This document shows, in pieces, positions 10,884 through 15,217 of a DNA stretch of 64,000 nucleotides (the stretch's first letter is position 1; each line of letters opens with the position of its first letter). The translations under genes and the position numbers were made by a program. The stretch comes from Hymenobacter amundsenii (lineage in GTDB: Bacteria > Bacteroidota > Bacteroidia > Cytophagales > Hymenobacteraceae): NCBI RefSeq assembly GCF_002204745.1, contig NZ_NIRR01000001.1, positions 186,001-250,000 on the forward strand, in the 5' to 3' direction. Below the pieces are notes generated by a model. It worked only from the letters and a program-made list of their open reading frames with translations. It searched no databases and was not told where the DNA came from.

Positions 10884-10915
10884 TTGCAAATACCAAATTC
10901 TCTCGCATACCTTTG
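10884..10915 (+). promoter_or_regulatory. Promoter of the SAM-riboswitch/met operon transcript
   Basis: TTG at 10884-10886 and TACCTTTG at 10908-10915, 21 nt apart, fit the Bacteroidota TTG-N19-21-TAnnTTTG pattern well. The start of transcription is expected near 10920, about 50 nt before the riboswitch. The 240 bp upstream (10671-10883) are AT-rich and hold no supported gene. Confidence 0.75.
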
Positions 10916-10967
10916 CAACACCAACCCGGTACTGGTCCGCTCGCGGCGGAACAGTTTTCATAGGATT

Positions 10968-11061
10968 TATACAGAAGTGGCGAGAGAACAGGCTCCCTGA
11001 CCCACTGGCAACCTTCGACCGCGCGAAAGGTGCCAATTCCTGCCCGACCAGCTTGTACGAA
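10968..11061 (+). ncRNA. SAM-I-type (S-box) riboswitch
   Basis: The core of the SAM-I aptamer is readable: GAGAGAACAGGC at 10982-10993, CCTGACCCACTGGCAACC ending at 11013, and AAAGGTGCCAATTCC at 11026-11040. These correspond to the conserved GA-rich internal loop, the pseudoknot/GGCAACC region and the AAGGTGCnAAnTCC strand. TACAGAAG near 10970 and CTTGTA near 11052 can close an imperfect P1. It sits downstream of a good promoter and upstream of metY-metX-hom, the expected target. The switch probably lowers expression when S-adenosylmethionine is plentiful; whether it acts on transcription or translation is not clear, since 427 nt separate it from metY. Confidence 0.9.
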
Positions 11062-11095
11062 CCGTACGGCGGCGGGGCATATAACTCACTGTGCC

Positions 11096-11266
11096 ATGGA
11101 AAACTCCTTCGCTTTCGTCGTTTCCTCCCCCACCGCTCCGGCCGCCTTCGGGCCCGCCGGTTCGCCGTGGGGTTTTGGCGTTGCCCCGGCTGCGTTTGCA
11201 GCAGCCCCAGCGGCCCGCCGAATGCGAATGCGTGACTTTTGCGGCCTGCGTTGTTGCTGTTGTTAG
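11096..11266 (+). CDS. Short leader ORF ending in four cysteine codons (possible attenuator peptide)
   Basis: An open frame between the riboswitch and metY. From ATG 11096 it would encode 56 residues; in-frame ATGs at 11222 and 11228 would give a 14- or 12-residue peptide, MRMRDFCGLRCCCC. It ends Cys-Gly-Leu-Arg-Cys-Cys-Cys-Cys and then TAG. Four consecutive Cys codons just before a stop, in the leader of a sulfur amino-acid operon, recall the polycysteine leader peptides that sense cysteine supply in mycobacteria. The shortest start gives the most leader-like peptide. I have no evidence of translation, and the frame could be chance in GC-rich DNA. No clear antiterminator pair was worked out downstream. 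Confidence 0.45.
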   Translation: MENSFAFVVSSPTAPAAFGPAGSPWGFGVAPAAFAAAPAARRMRMRDFCGLRCCCC

Positions 11267-12871
<1,605 letters not shown>

Positions 12872-12939: not shown

Positions 12940-13977
12940 ATGCCTATTCACCAGTTTCAACTAGCGCAGCCGCTACCCTTGGAAAGCGGGGCCGTGCTCC
13001 CCCACGTGCAGGTGGCCTACCACACCTCCGGCCACCTCAATGCGGCCCGCGACAACGTAGTATGGGTCTGCCACGCCCTGACGGCTAACGCCGACGCGGC
13101 CGACTGGTGGCCGGGGTTGGTGGGCGCGGGCTGCCACTTCGACCCGGCCGACTGGTTTATCGTGTGCGCCAACGTGCTGGGCTCCTGCTACGGCACCACT
13201 GCCCCGCTCACGCCCAACTCCGAAACCGCCCGCCCGGTCTTCCGCGACTTTCCGCTCATCACGATCCGGGATATGGTGGCGGTACACGAAGCCCTGCGCG
13301 AACACCTGGATCTTCCCCGCATTCACACCCTGATCGGGGGCTCCTTGGGCGGGCAGCAGGCCGTGGAATGGGCCGTGCAACGCCCAAACGTGTTCGGCAA
13401 CTTGGTGCTGCTGGCTACCAACGCCCGGCACTCGGCCTGGGGTATTGCCTTTAACGAGGCCCAGCGCCTGGCCATTTTTGCTGATGCTACCTACGCGGCC
13501 GACACCCCGGCGGGCGGGGCGGCCGGGCTGCGGGCCGCCCGGGCGGTAGCGCTGCTCAGCTACCGCAGCGCCGAAGCCTACGGCCGCACCCAAACCGAAC
13601 CAGACGAGGAGAAGCTGGACGATTTTCCGGCCAGCTCCTACCAGCGCTACCAGGGCGATAAGCTCGCGGTCCGCTTCGACGCCTACAGCTACGTAGCCCT
13701 GACGCGGGCCATGGACAGCCACCACGTAGGCCGTGGGCGGGGCGGGGTGGCCGCCGCCCTGGGCCGCATCCGGGCCCGCACGCTGGTGGTGGGCATTACG
13801 TCCGATGTGCTGTTTCCGGTGGCGGAGCAGCAACTGTTGGCCCGCCACATCCGGGGAGCCGTGTACGCCGAAATGGATTCGCCCTTCGGCCACGATGGCT
13901 TCCTGCTGGAAGCCGCCCAAATCACCCATTTTCTCGAACGATTCGCTGCCCCTACCGATGCTTACGAACCAGCCTAA
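12940..13977 (+). CDS. metX: Homoserine O-acetyltransferase
   Basis: A 345-residue alpha/beta hydrolase-fold acyltransferase that acetylates homoserine with acetyl-CoA, giving the substrate of the neighbouring MetY. The oxyanion region VVWVCHALTANAD, the segment VLGSCYGTTAP (the family GSxxGTTGP motif), the nucleophile elbow GGSLGGQQAVEW with Ser135, and the final catalytic His318 in PFGHDGFLLE are all present. Whether the acyl donor is acetyl- or succinyl-CoA is not certain from this reading; acetyl is inferred from pairing with metY. The 3' end overlaps the hom start by 20 bp, so translation is likely coupled. Confidence 0.94.
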   Translation: MPIHQFQLAQPLPLESGAVLPHVQVAYHTSGHLNAARDNVVWVCHALTANADAADWWPGLVGAGCHFDPADWFIVCANVLGSCYGTTAPLTPNSETARPVFRDFPLITIRDMVAVHEALREHLDLPRIHTLIGGSLGGQQAVEWAVQRPNVFGNLVLLATNARHSAWGIAFNEAQRLAIFADATYAADTPAGGAAGLRAARAVALLSYRSAEAYGRTQTEPDEEKLDDFPASSYQRYQGDKLAVRFDAYSYVALTRAMDSHHVGRGRGGVAAALGRIRARTLVVGITSDVLFPVAEQQLLARHIRGAVYAEMDSPFGHDGFLLEAAQITHFLERFAAPTDAYEPA

Positions 13978-15217
13978 CCATATTACTGCCCTCTTCCCTA
14001 CCCGGCAGTGGCGGGTGGGCCTTATTGGGTTCGGGTGCGTGGGCCAGGGCCTGTACGATATCCTGGACCAGCGCCCCGAAGCCGGCTTTATCATCAGCCG
14101 CATTGCGGTGAAGAACCCCACCAAAGCGCGCACGTTGTCCGCCGAGCGATTCGAGTTCGACGCCGAGCTGCTGCTGGCCGACGATTCGCTGGACGTGCTG
14201 GTGGAAGTAATCGACGACGCGGATACCGCTTTTTGGTTGGTGAGCGAGTCCCTGCGCCGGGGCCGGCGGGTGGTAACGGCCAACAAGGCCATGCTGGCTC
14301 GCCACCTGCCCGCACTGGTGCAACTCCAGCGCGAAACGGGCGGCACCTTGCTATACGAGGCGGCCGTGTGTGGCAGCATTCCGGTTATCCGTACGCTGGA
14401 AGCATATTTCGGGGTCGAACCGCTGCACCGCCTCACGGGCATCCTCAACGGCTCCTCCAACTACGTGCTGACCCGCATGGGCGAGGAGGGCGCCGACTAC
14501 GCCCCCGCCCTGGCCGAAGCCCAGCAGCTGGGCTTCGCCGAAACCGAACCCAGCCTCGACATGGGCGCCTTCGACCCGCGCTCCAAGGCAGTGCTGCTGG
14601 CCGCCCACGCCTACGGTGCTTTCCTCGACCCCGAGCAGGTGCTGAACCTGGGCATTGAGGGCATCGGGGCCGTGGATATTGCCTTTGCCGCCAGCCAGGG
14701 CCAGAAAATAAAGGTAGTAGCTGGCCTCCAACGCCTGCCGGACGGCCGCGTAACCGTGCTGGTTACACCCCAACTGGTTGGGCCCGATTCGCCGCTTTAC
14801 ACCGTCGACCACGAATTCAACGGCGTGGTGATAGAGGCCGACTTTGCCGGGGAGCAGTTCCTGCGCGGGCGCGGGGCTGGCGGGCACCCCACCGGCTCGG
14901 CCGTGCTGGCCGACCTGGCCGCGTTGCGCCAGGGCTTCGCTTATCAATATCATAAAGCCGCCGAAGCCCCCGAATACGCCGCCGACCTGGAGGTGGAAAT
15001 CTACCTGCGCACCAACGAACCGAGAATCATCGACCTGCTCGATTTCAGCGAAATTTCAGAGGAGGCCGACGAGGACGAATACGTGGTGGGCTACGTCGCC
15101 CTGCAACACCTCATCCGCCACCGCGACACGCTGCGCCAGTATGGCGCCTTCGTCGTGCGTACCGGCCGGCTGCGACCCATCGGGGAAGAAGTAGAGACCG
15201 TGGCCGCATCGGCCTAG
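13958..15217 (+). CDS. hom: Homoserine dehydrogenase (monofunctional)
   Basis: A 419-residue NAD(P)-dependent oxidoreductase reducing aspartate semialdehyde to homoserine. The dinucleotide fold begins WRVGLIGFGCVGQGL, VVTANKAML is the conserved turn, and the catalytic domain has GILNGSSNYVLTRM, EAQQLGFAETEPSLD and the typical Asp/Lys region DPRSKAVLLAAHAYG. There is no aspartokinase domain; in many Bacteroidota hom is fused to aspartokinase, so this copy looks dedicated to methionine synthesis. The last ~60 residues form an extra region (EISEEADEDEYVVGYVAL) that may be an ACT-like remnant. The ATG at 13958 lies within the end of metX and removes a long non-homologous extension in the same frame. 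Confidence 0.93.
   Translation: MLTNQPNHITALFPTRQWRVGLIGFGCVGQGLYDILDQRPEAGFIISRIAVKNPTKARTLSAERFEFDAELLLADDSLDVLVEVIDDADTAFWLVSESLRRGRRVVTANKAMLARHLPALVQLQRETGGTLLYEAAVCGSIPVIRTLEAYFGVEPLHRLTGILNGSSNYVLTRMGEEGADYAPALAEAQQLGFAETEPSLDMGAFDPRSKAVLLAAHAYGAFLDPEQVLNLGIEGIGAVDIAFAASQGQKIKVVAGLQRLPDGRVTVLVTPQLVGPDSPLYTVDHEFNGVVIEADFAGEQFLRGRGAGGHPTGSAVLADLAALRQGFAYQYHKAAEAPEYAADLEVEIYLRTNEPRIIDLLDFSEISEEADEDEYVVGYVALQHLIRHRDTLRQYGAFVVRTGRLRPIGEEVETVAASA

Follow-up and report, generated by a model that had tools for sequence, protein, structure and literature searches.

Both halves of the arrangement described here are already known, namely SAM-I riboswitches and leader open reading frames (ORFs) with Cys codons. 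Like other members of the SAM-I family (S box, RF00162), the riboswitch of the present leader is a full-length aptamer upstream of methionine genes; it departs from the usual form in that its helix P1 ends TATAA and appears to serve as the start region of a leader ORF. A form with P1 ending GATAAG occurs in the same genomes and is mostly followed by a terminator, whereas the TATAA form has no convincing intrinsic terminator. As for the second half, the polycysteine leaderless short ORFs of mycobacteria reportedly answer to cysteine, to judge by the title of a 2020 study by Canestrari. The upstream ORF (uORF) examined here meets the same description in that a Cys run ends a short ORF before sulfur genes. 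It differs from the mycobacterial ORFs in not being leaderless, as an aptamer and a promoter-like site lie upstream of it (the transcript start being inferred), in belonging to another phylum and in the enrichment of Met as well as Cys in the uORFs of Bacteroidia.

Leader ORFs with a Cys run near the stop codon before sulfur genes were noted in 2005 for the cys operons of Mycobacterium and P. acnes and for cbs of B. longum; as far as the accessible text of that work goes, the aligned mycobacterial leaders lacked conserved hairpins able to terminate and Rho-dependent termination was suggested, as in tna (PMC1262725). These Cys leaders of Actinobacteria differ from the present case in phylum and, within the same accessible text, in that neither a riboswitch beside them nor conservation of RNA structure ahead of methionine operons was reported (PMC1262725). 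The uORFC-8-2 motif before cysS in Rhodobacterales is alike in having tandem Cys codons in a uORF and has been proposed to be a ribosome-mediated attenuator, but its Cys codons number two, it ends in a U-run compatible with an intrinsic terminator, and no riboswitch is mentioned for it in the available portion of the source (PMC8632094). The B12 riboswitches of M. tuberculosis ppe2 and metE join a riboswitch to a uORF that is translated and influences the gene behind it, and Rho-dependent termination is discussed for them; however, the ligand is B12, the sections available describe no codon-specific sensing of an amino acid, and ppe2 relies mainly on termination-reinitiation (PMC11260477). The introduction of the same paper notes that the influence of uORFs associated with riboswitches was still unaddressed (PMC11260477). 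The Clostridium ubiG operon is likewise a sulfur operon that takes Cys-tRNA and SAM signals via RNA, but it does so with a T-box that senses tRNA charging and an S-box that acts via an antisense RNA, with no leader peptide in the part of the account available (PMC2940859). Within the Bacteroidota, leader-peptide attenuation has been proposed for amino-acid operons of F. psychrophilum, although the available main text, supplements not covered, names neither Cys leader peptides nor a SAM riboswitch (PMC9723704), and similar short ORFs are mentioned, in the text available, for B. thetaiotaomicron (PMC7366714). No description of a SAM riboswitch paired with a Cys leader peptide was found in the open-licence literature, supplements again not covered. 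The signals of the mgtCBR leader of Salmonella, a further case of tandem attenuators, are other than SAM and Cys. That leader is alike in that it holds two short ORFs, the translation of which is anticipated, in the portion of the paper available, to control the operon (PMC3641672).

The met operon leader and its uORF

In the window, by which we mean the whole 64,000-nucleotide stretch of Hymenobacter amundsenii DNA that was analysed (genome 4.58 Mb), covariance model searching with cmscan placed a SAM-I riboswitch aptamer (RF00162) at 10964-11087 on the forward strand, with a score of 65.6 bits (gathering score 44.4, E 5e-13) and at full length (1-108). The covariance model criterion for membership of SAM-I is met; binding of SAM and a consequent change in expression are inferred, without assays. 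The 3′ strand of helix P1 lies at 11080-11087 in the cmscan alignment, with one mismatch elsewhere in the helix. A TTG element is part of the Bacteroidota-type promoter, and a match to the pattern (TTG, 21 nt, TACCTTTG) precedes the aptamer at 10884-10915 on the same strand. When 2000 stretches of 205 bases were drawn at random from the window, 26 contained the pattern. The sigma-A consensus given for the Bacteroidota species F. psychrophilum, in the part of the source available, is TAnnTTTG (PMC9723704).

Three genes of methionine metabolism follow on the forward strand. The first, metY at 11489-12871, encodes an O-acetylhomoserine sulfhydrylase (TIGR01326 673 bits, cut-off 495; PF01053) and is 85-86% identical to the metY of two Hymenobacter. 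It is followed by a metX-like homoserine O-acyltransferase gene at 12940-13977 (TIGR01392 350 bits, below the cut-off of 500) and by a homoserine dehydrogenase gene at 13958-15217 (NF004976 296 bits, cut-off 205), the start of the latter being the ATG before the domain within the frame 13733-15217, as located by residue counting.

The initial annotation had pointed to an open frame in this leader, between a SAM riboswitch and metY, that ends in four Cys codons and holds two ATGs in the same frame, at 14 and 12 codons from the stop. Translation confirmed each of these elements. The frame runs from 11096 to 11266 (+) over 56 codons, translates in full as MENSFAFVVSSPTAPAAFGPAGSPWGFGVAPAAFAAAPAARRMRMRDFCGLRCCCC-stop and ends RMRMRDFCGLRCCCC; the four Cys codons, TGT TGC TGT TGT, occupy 11252-11263 directly before the TAG stop at 11264-11266, a fifth Cys codon lies at 11240-11242, and the two in-frame ATGs are at 11222 and 11228. 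These internal ATGs were ruled out as the true start. The likely start is the ATG at 11096, 8 nt 3′ of the aptamer end, because relatives within the genus share this start, in the same frame and with the same spacing from the aptamer. A competing GTG frame at 11091, which a ‘first start’ rule had chosen for the window (locus L003), was rejected as well: it contains no Cys, and relatives retain the ATG frame. An antisense ORF at 10967-11341 gave no Pfam match. Translation of the uORF is itself inferred, from conservation only.

Recurrence and codon content of the uORFs

We compared the window with several samples of SAM aptamers, in which aptamer forms were defined by a pattern rule on the P1 3′ strand. 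Set A comprised 113 SAM aptamers, among the matches listed, in 59 genomes belonging to the same genus and order as the window, the window included (33 loci and 80 further fetched regions), and was divided by the rule into 61 TATAA, 47 GATAAG or similar and five others. At least three consecutive Cys codons were present within 230 nt in 50 of the 61 TATAA leaders, where dinucleotide shuffles gave an expectation of 3.5, and 49 of these 50 runs were in the frame of a start about 9 nt 3′ of the aptamer, again among the matches listed. A Cys run followed three of 46 unique GATAAG aptamers among the matches listed (L200, L203 and L216); L200 and L203 were assigned to the wrong form by the pattern rule, being metY leaders that carry a uORF. 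Set C was built from metY loci (titled records and a class-wide sample), with 100 of the 110 loci L034-L143 scanned with cmscan; the scan yielded 70 SAM aptamers, of which 69 were kept after L059 had been dropped for its position far upstream of metY, and a single place is common to sets A and C (L168 = L119). A Cys run was present in 20 of the 40 TATAA-type metY leaders of set C (0.7 expected), in frame in 20/20, and in 0/15 of the GATAAG leaders; the other 20 TATAA-type leaders are without three consecutive Cys codons. The promoter pattern was found within 200 nt 5′ of the aptamer at 20/32 loci of set A (among the matches listed), 30/69 of set C and 11/30 of set E, counting only loci with enough upstream sequence. 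For the genus itself, 32 metY loci were examined and 30 kept in a set that was built by searching for Cys runs; L234 had coding sequence at the expected place of the leader, its assumed start being wrong, and the leader of L247 contained no Cys run. Related sequences are not independent, hence no p-values are given.

Peptides that end in two to seven Cys in a row, after a SAM aptamer and before metY, were found in Hymenobacter, Pontibacter, Pedobacter and a Flavobacteriaceae strain, and likewise in metagenome-assembled genomes (MAGs) labelled Sphingobacterium, Haliscomenobacter, Lewinella, Saprospiraceae, Cyclobacteriaceae and Bernardetia. In a further family, f60, the uORF was detected by pattern at 42 of the 69 metY loci examined, 25 of the remaining loci being without an aptamer core by pattern and two having a core without a uORF. 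We take f60 for Sphingobacteriaceae because its member L277 and the Sphingobacterium locus L037 share the same uORF. A class-wide sample of 90 aptamers, made of the 30 best and 60 picked from the listing (with Hymenobacter, previously sampled places and some loci close to contig ends excluded), contained 74 GATAAG, 10 other and six TATAA aptamers. Among the six TATAA aptamers, four were followed by a uORF whose last 12 codons hold at least two Cys; L349, one of these four, coincides with L135 of set C. Of the other two, L394 runs directly into a metX-like gene and L360 has no uORF; L156 is another TATAA-type leader without one. The TATAA/uORF form is a minority among the high-scoring SAM aptamers of the class, in a sample that favours high scores. 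Loss of the Cys run or its frame in related leaders would have spoken against the initial annotation, and it was not refuted on this point: the run, the frame, the place before the stop and the pairing with a SAM aptamer are all found again within the genus and in further families of Bacteroidia.

The window's own genome holds a second composite leader (L001, G000:C51:42890-42982, minus strand), in which a SAM aptamer and a GTG-start uORF ending GLCCRGCCCCCSRA lie upstream of a RimK-like ATP-grasp gene. In another leader (L023:1760-1780) a second TGCTGTTGTTGC-TGA stands right after the poly-Cys uORF, like a Cys segment duplicated out of frame.

The codon content of the uORFs was analysed for 137 unique sequences, excluding the Cys-picked genus set and keeping the window's peptide as L003. 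Cys made up 33.8% of the last 12 codons versus 3.2% elsewhere and Met 10.7% versus 1.3%, and 121 of the 137 had at least two Cys within the last 12 codons. Three further amino acids rose in the last 12 codons, namely Gly (from 2.8 to 6.5%), Arg (from 4.0 to 5.6%) and Trp (from 0.1 to 1.0%), the last being rare with 16 residues; the other 15 amino acids fell (full table). In an alignment of 30 genus peptides, the window's own not included, the last 14 codons showed a difference in 4.9% of comparisons at codon position 2 and in 22.4% at position 3; the N-terminal half showed no such constraint by codon position and was not conserved as protein in the same alignment. Read from these alignments, selection acts on the amino acid, with a free body and a fixed run of putative sensor codons before the stop, which gives the uORF the look of a leader peptide. 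Some lineages have a uORF without the Cys run, ending RMR or with a single Cys. In two Bacteroidales MAGs (L058 and L110) the uORF tails are Met-rich, HMAMPMPGC and HMSMRMPGC, as if Met codons were the sensor.

These data bear on two alternatives in which the Cys codons would not be read by a ribosome as a signal. The run could be a nucleotide repeat or an RNA structural element in an untranslated frame, a suggestion lent some support by the repetitive GCTGTTGCTGTTG, the absence of peptide data and the unconserved N-terminal half. We consider this scarcely credible, as the runs lie in the frame of a post-aptamer start in 69/70 cases (49/50 plus 20/20), TGT and TGC are mixed (475 and 279 codons, the Cys-picked set included), enrichment extends to the second sulfur amino acid, Met, and the pattern is found in both GC-rich and AT-rich leaders with very different flanks. 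Cys-rich tails can bind metals, and with its 56 residues the window peptide might alternatively be a functional small Cys-rich protein, binding metal or acting in redox, rather than a sensor. This, too, would be very surprising: neither Pfam nor NCBIfam gave a match to the peptide, the uORFs differ in length and N-terminal sequence, the number of Cys in the last 12 codons ranges from 0 to 8, and the frame stays beside a SAM riboswitch, mostly before sulfur genes.

Target genes were named from BLAST clusters, one representative being scanned per cluster (L028, L146, L163 and L191 fell in no cluster). In set A, among the matches listed, the TATAA form precedes cysH in 19 leaders (representative PAPS reductase 247 bits, cut-off 154), an amino acid permease gene (15/16), a RimK-like ATP-grasp gene (9/11), metY (nine leaders) and a SusC/RagA-like gene (four). 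The GATAAG form, among the matches listed for the same set, precedes metH (26/27), metB-like genes, a homoserine dehydrogenase gene (four) and a cysK-like gene (two). Outside the genus the uORF form also stands before genes reading as metX (L393 and L398); for L393, L394, L398 and L402 the downstream gene was identified by eye. Metabolically, the metB-like enzymes form cystathionine from Cys. To judge by these targets, genes that gain sulfur or cysteine would mostly carry the Cys reader, and metH and the metB-like genes would respond only to SAM; the cysK-like gene, which has the terminator form, is an exception to the rule. The SusC/RagA-like targets suggest uptake of a sulfur compound. The same leader form was seen before a gene cluster at L022, L181, L182 and L195, the gene at L182 being SusC/RagA-like.

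The initial annotation had proposed two inputs for the operon, SAM through the riboswitch and charged tRNA-Cys through the ribosome. The recurrence of the Cys run, its frame and its pairing with SAM aptamers supports this as the best reading: because the pairing recurs in many Bacteroidota, mostly before sulfur genes, the leader is very probably a two-input switch that reads SAM and the supply of cysteine.

The aptamer 3′ end and uORF initiation

The start of the uORF follows the aptamer closely, with an offset of 9 nt as the mode (55 of 98 TATAA-type leaders), and 46 of the 98 uORFs start with GTG. In these leaders A is found at positions -14 to -11 of the uORF start in 73-88%, and these positions lie inside the 3′ end of the aptamer in 94-99%. 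In the window, the A's at 11083-11084 correspond to -13 and -12 and are paired in P1 in the cmscan alignment. The Bacteroidota are described, in the available text on F. johnsoniae, as a phylum without Shine-Dalgarno sequences; A's are over-represented at -14 to -11 in that species, A at -12/-13 promotes initiation, and A at -3 and -6 are also positive determinants (PMC6847099). In the 98 leaders A was present in only 40% at -3 and only 26% at -6, which counts against the match to F. johnsoniae.

Since the A-rich stretch at -14 to -11 is inside the aptamer and pairs in P1, we propose that P1 is both the switch helix and the initiation element. The uORF start region overlaps the aptamer as in riboswitch-controlled uORFs of the M. 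tuberculosis B12 type, an arrangement in which the ligand could block it, and the riboswitch appears to control initiation of the uORF itself, the closing of the start site by SAM being inferred. One locus seems to use the same geometry directly on a real gene: at L394 the gene reading as metX starts 11 nt after a TATAA-type aptamer without a uORF, which looks like a plain translational SAM switch.

Because the riboswitch appears to control uORF initiation, the two sensors would be arranged in series. The A/U-rich P1 strand would at the same time provide the A-rich element for initiation at the uORF start, 11096; judging from this geometry, with SAM plentiful P1 would be closed and the uORF not started, and with SAM low ribosomes would enter. 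From the codon content, the speed of the ribosome over the terminal Cys codons, and the Met codons before them, may then report charged tRNA-Cys and perhaps tRNA-Met. A ribosome held at the Cys codons would raise expression of metY-metX-hom, and fast passage, or no ribosome at all, would leave it low. The operon would open only when SAM and Cys are both short, as an AND gate, the direction of which is inferred from the target genes. That the uORF is a SAM-gated, Cys-coding sensor is in our judgement highly likely, in the absence of transcript, ribosome or reporter data.

With somewhat less assurance, we regard it as likely that the window exemplifies a widespread composite regulator of Bacteroidia, a SAM-I riboswitch whose expression platform is the start site of a leader peptide reading Cys and Met codons. 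Without an intrinsic terminator or a Shine-Dalgarno sequence, this composite would act as a serial AND gate for metY, metX, cysH and the permease, the SAM-only terminator form being kept for metH and metB-like genes. If true, this would be a natural two-input RNA gate for sulfur assimilation, with a riboswitch and a codon-reading leader peptide in series, in several families of a single phylum. It would also explain the two SAM riboswitch forms of these bacteria, split largely by target gene, and assign a concrete role to the A-rich initiation element of Bacteroidota. Finally, it would offer a system for studying control by leader-ORF ribosomes where no intrinsic terminator is visible, a question raised in 2005, as far as the accessible text goes (PMC1262725).

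Readout between the uORF and metY

The step by which a ribosome on the Cys codons would affect metY was examined in terms of terminators, folds and composition. An attenuator of the trp type, with competing terminator and antiterminator hairpins, would be expected to go with a leader ORF that holds codons of the regulated amino acid, as this one does, and terminator-like matches were indeed found in 28 of 64 TATAA-type leaders versus 12.7 expected. In 17 of the 28, however, the T-run, as read from the matches, consists of the Cys codons themselves, and the 11 left are about the number expected. The other aptamers gave a terminator-like site in 32 of 49 (3.3 expected), over a shorter scanned stretch than that used for the TATAA leaders. 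In the window leader the single match (0.9 expected) overlaps the Cys codons, so that no convincing intrinsic terminator was found there. Competing terminator and antiterminator structures after the uORF were not found in the window, nor as a rule in TATAA-type leaders. A strict trp-type attenuator is thus not supported, and we hold it to be improbable. The description of the locus as an attenuator in the initial annotation stands as regards a leader ORF with codons of the regulated amino acid, but not as regards a terminator/antiterminator readout.

Eighteen of the GATAAG leaders with a terminator share one hairpin, a nearly invariant GCTCTTCTGACTTGTCGGAAGGGC or close to it followed by a T-run (L007-L011, L013-L018, L020, L021, L024, L027, L033, L157 and L173).

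Translational attenuation was considered next to this, in which a ribosome held on the Cys codons would refold the leader and free the metY start, as for the mycobacterial polycysteine ORFs, where the Cys run is likewise placed right before the stop. The cysteine genes of M. smegmatis are described, in the portion of the source available, as being under translation attenuation, citing Canestrari 2020 (PMC13236596). Thirteen Pedobacter-like leaders (L040, L043, L044, L125, L126, L263, L268, L276, L283, L285, L295, L299 and L311) have two hairpins adjoining the uORF stop; compensatory changes are seen in the second, and no T-run follows either of them. The presence of these hairpins speaks for such a mechanism. 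Against it, the metY start lies 93 to 225 nt from the uORF stop (genus and f60 loci with a uORF, L247 left aside), with no conserved partner in the genus. Masking of a stalled or a terminating ribosome in silico gave no consistent change in the accessibility of the metY start in 29 genus and 41 f60 leaders: the stalled ribosome did better in three and the ribosome at the stop in 12 of the 29, and the figures were 10 and five of the 41. Translational attenuation accordingly seems unlikely to us, although less so than the trp-type model.

A Rho-dependent readout is the version that we prefer. The untranslated spacer between the uORF stop and metY (11267-11488, 222 bases) is C-rich, with 41% C and 19% G. 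Over the 30 genus leaders the spacer averages C 0.39 and G 0.22, versus 0.276 and 0.248 in 29 upstream regions of the window, from which the metY leader was not removed; two of these 29 control regions are as rich in C over G as the window spacer. Rho is encoded in the window's genome (642 bits). A ribosome on the Cys codons would not cover the C-rich tract, which counts against the simplest picture of a ribosome blocking Rho, and for this reason some structure must pass the signal on. No conserved fold was detected in the genus spacer (RNAalifold on 30 leaders, 12 pairs, -7.2 kcal/mol), so that the link from ribosome to metY is a guess, and the folding z-score of the window stretch was only -1.27. 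From the results on terminators, folds, composition and masking taken together, Rho-dependent termination within 11267-11488, gated by a structure adjoining the uORF stop, is therefore preferred, but only tentatively; without Rho data it may well prove wrong, and it would be the least certain step of the proposed mechanism.

Several f60 leaders have further features around the uORF stop. The two hairpins of the Pedobacter-like group consist of CTTCC-loop-GGAAG, mostly with a pyrimidine-rich loop, and a second hairpin, after which comes TAC. A second f60 group (A4) has a five-pair stem adjoining the uORF stop, and the group ending RMR (A5) was aligned only. In L306, L307, L310, L315, L316 and L320 of f60, the uORFs after TATAA-type or similar aptamers end RMR without a terminal Cys run, and in several RMR-ending f60 leaders a stem opening at the stop codon was visible by eye (TAGTCGTC ... 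GACGAC).
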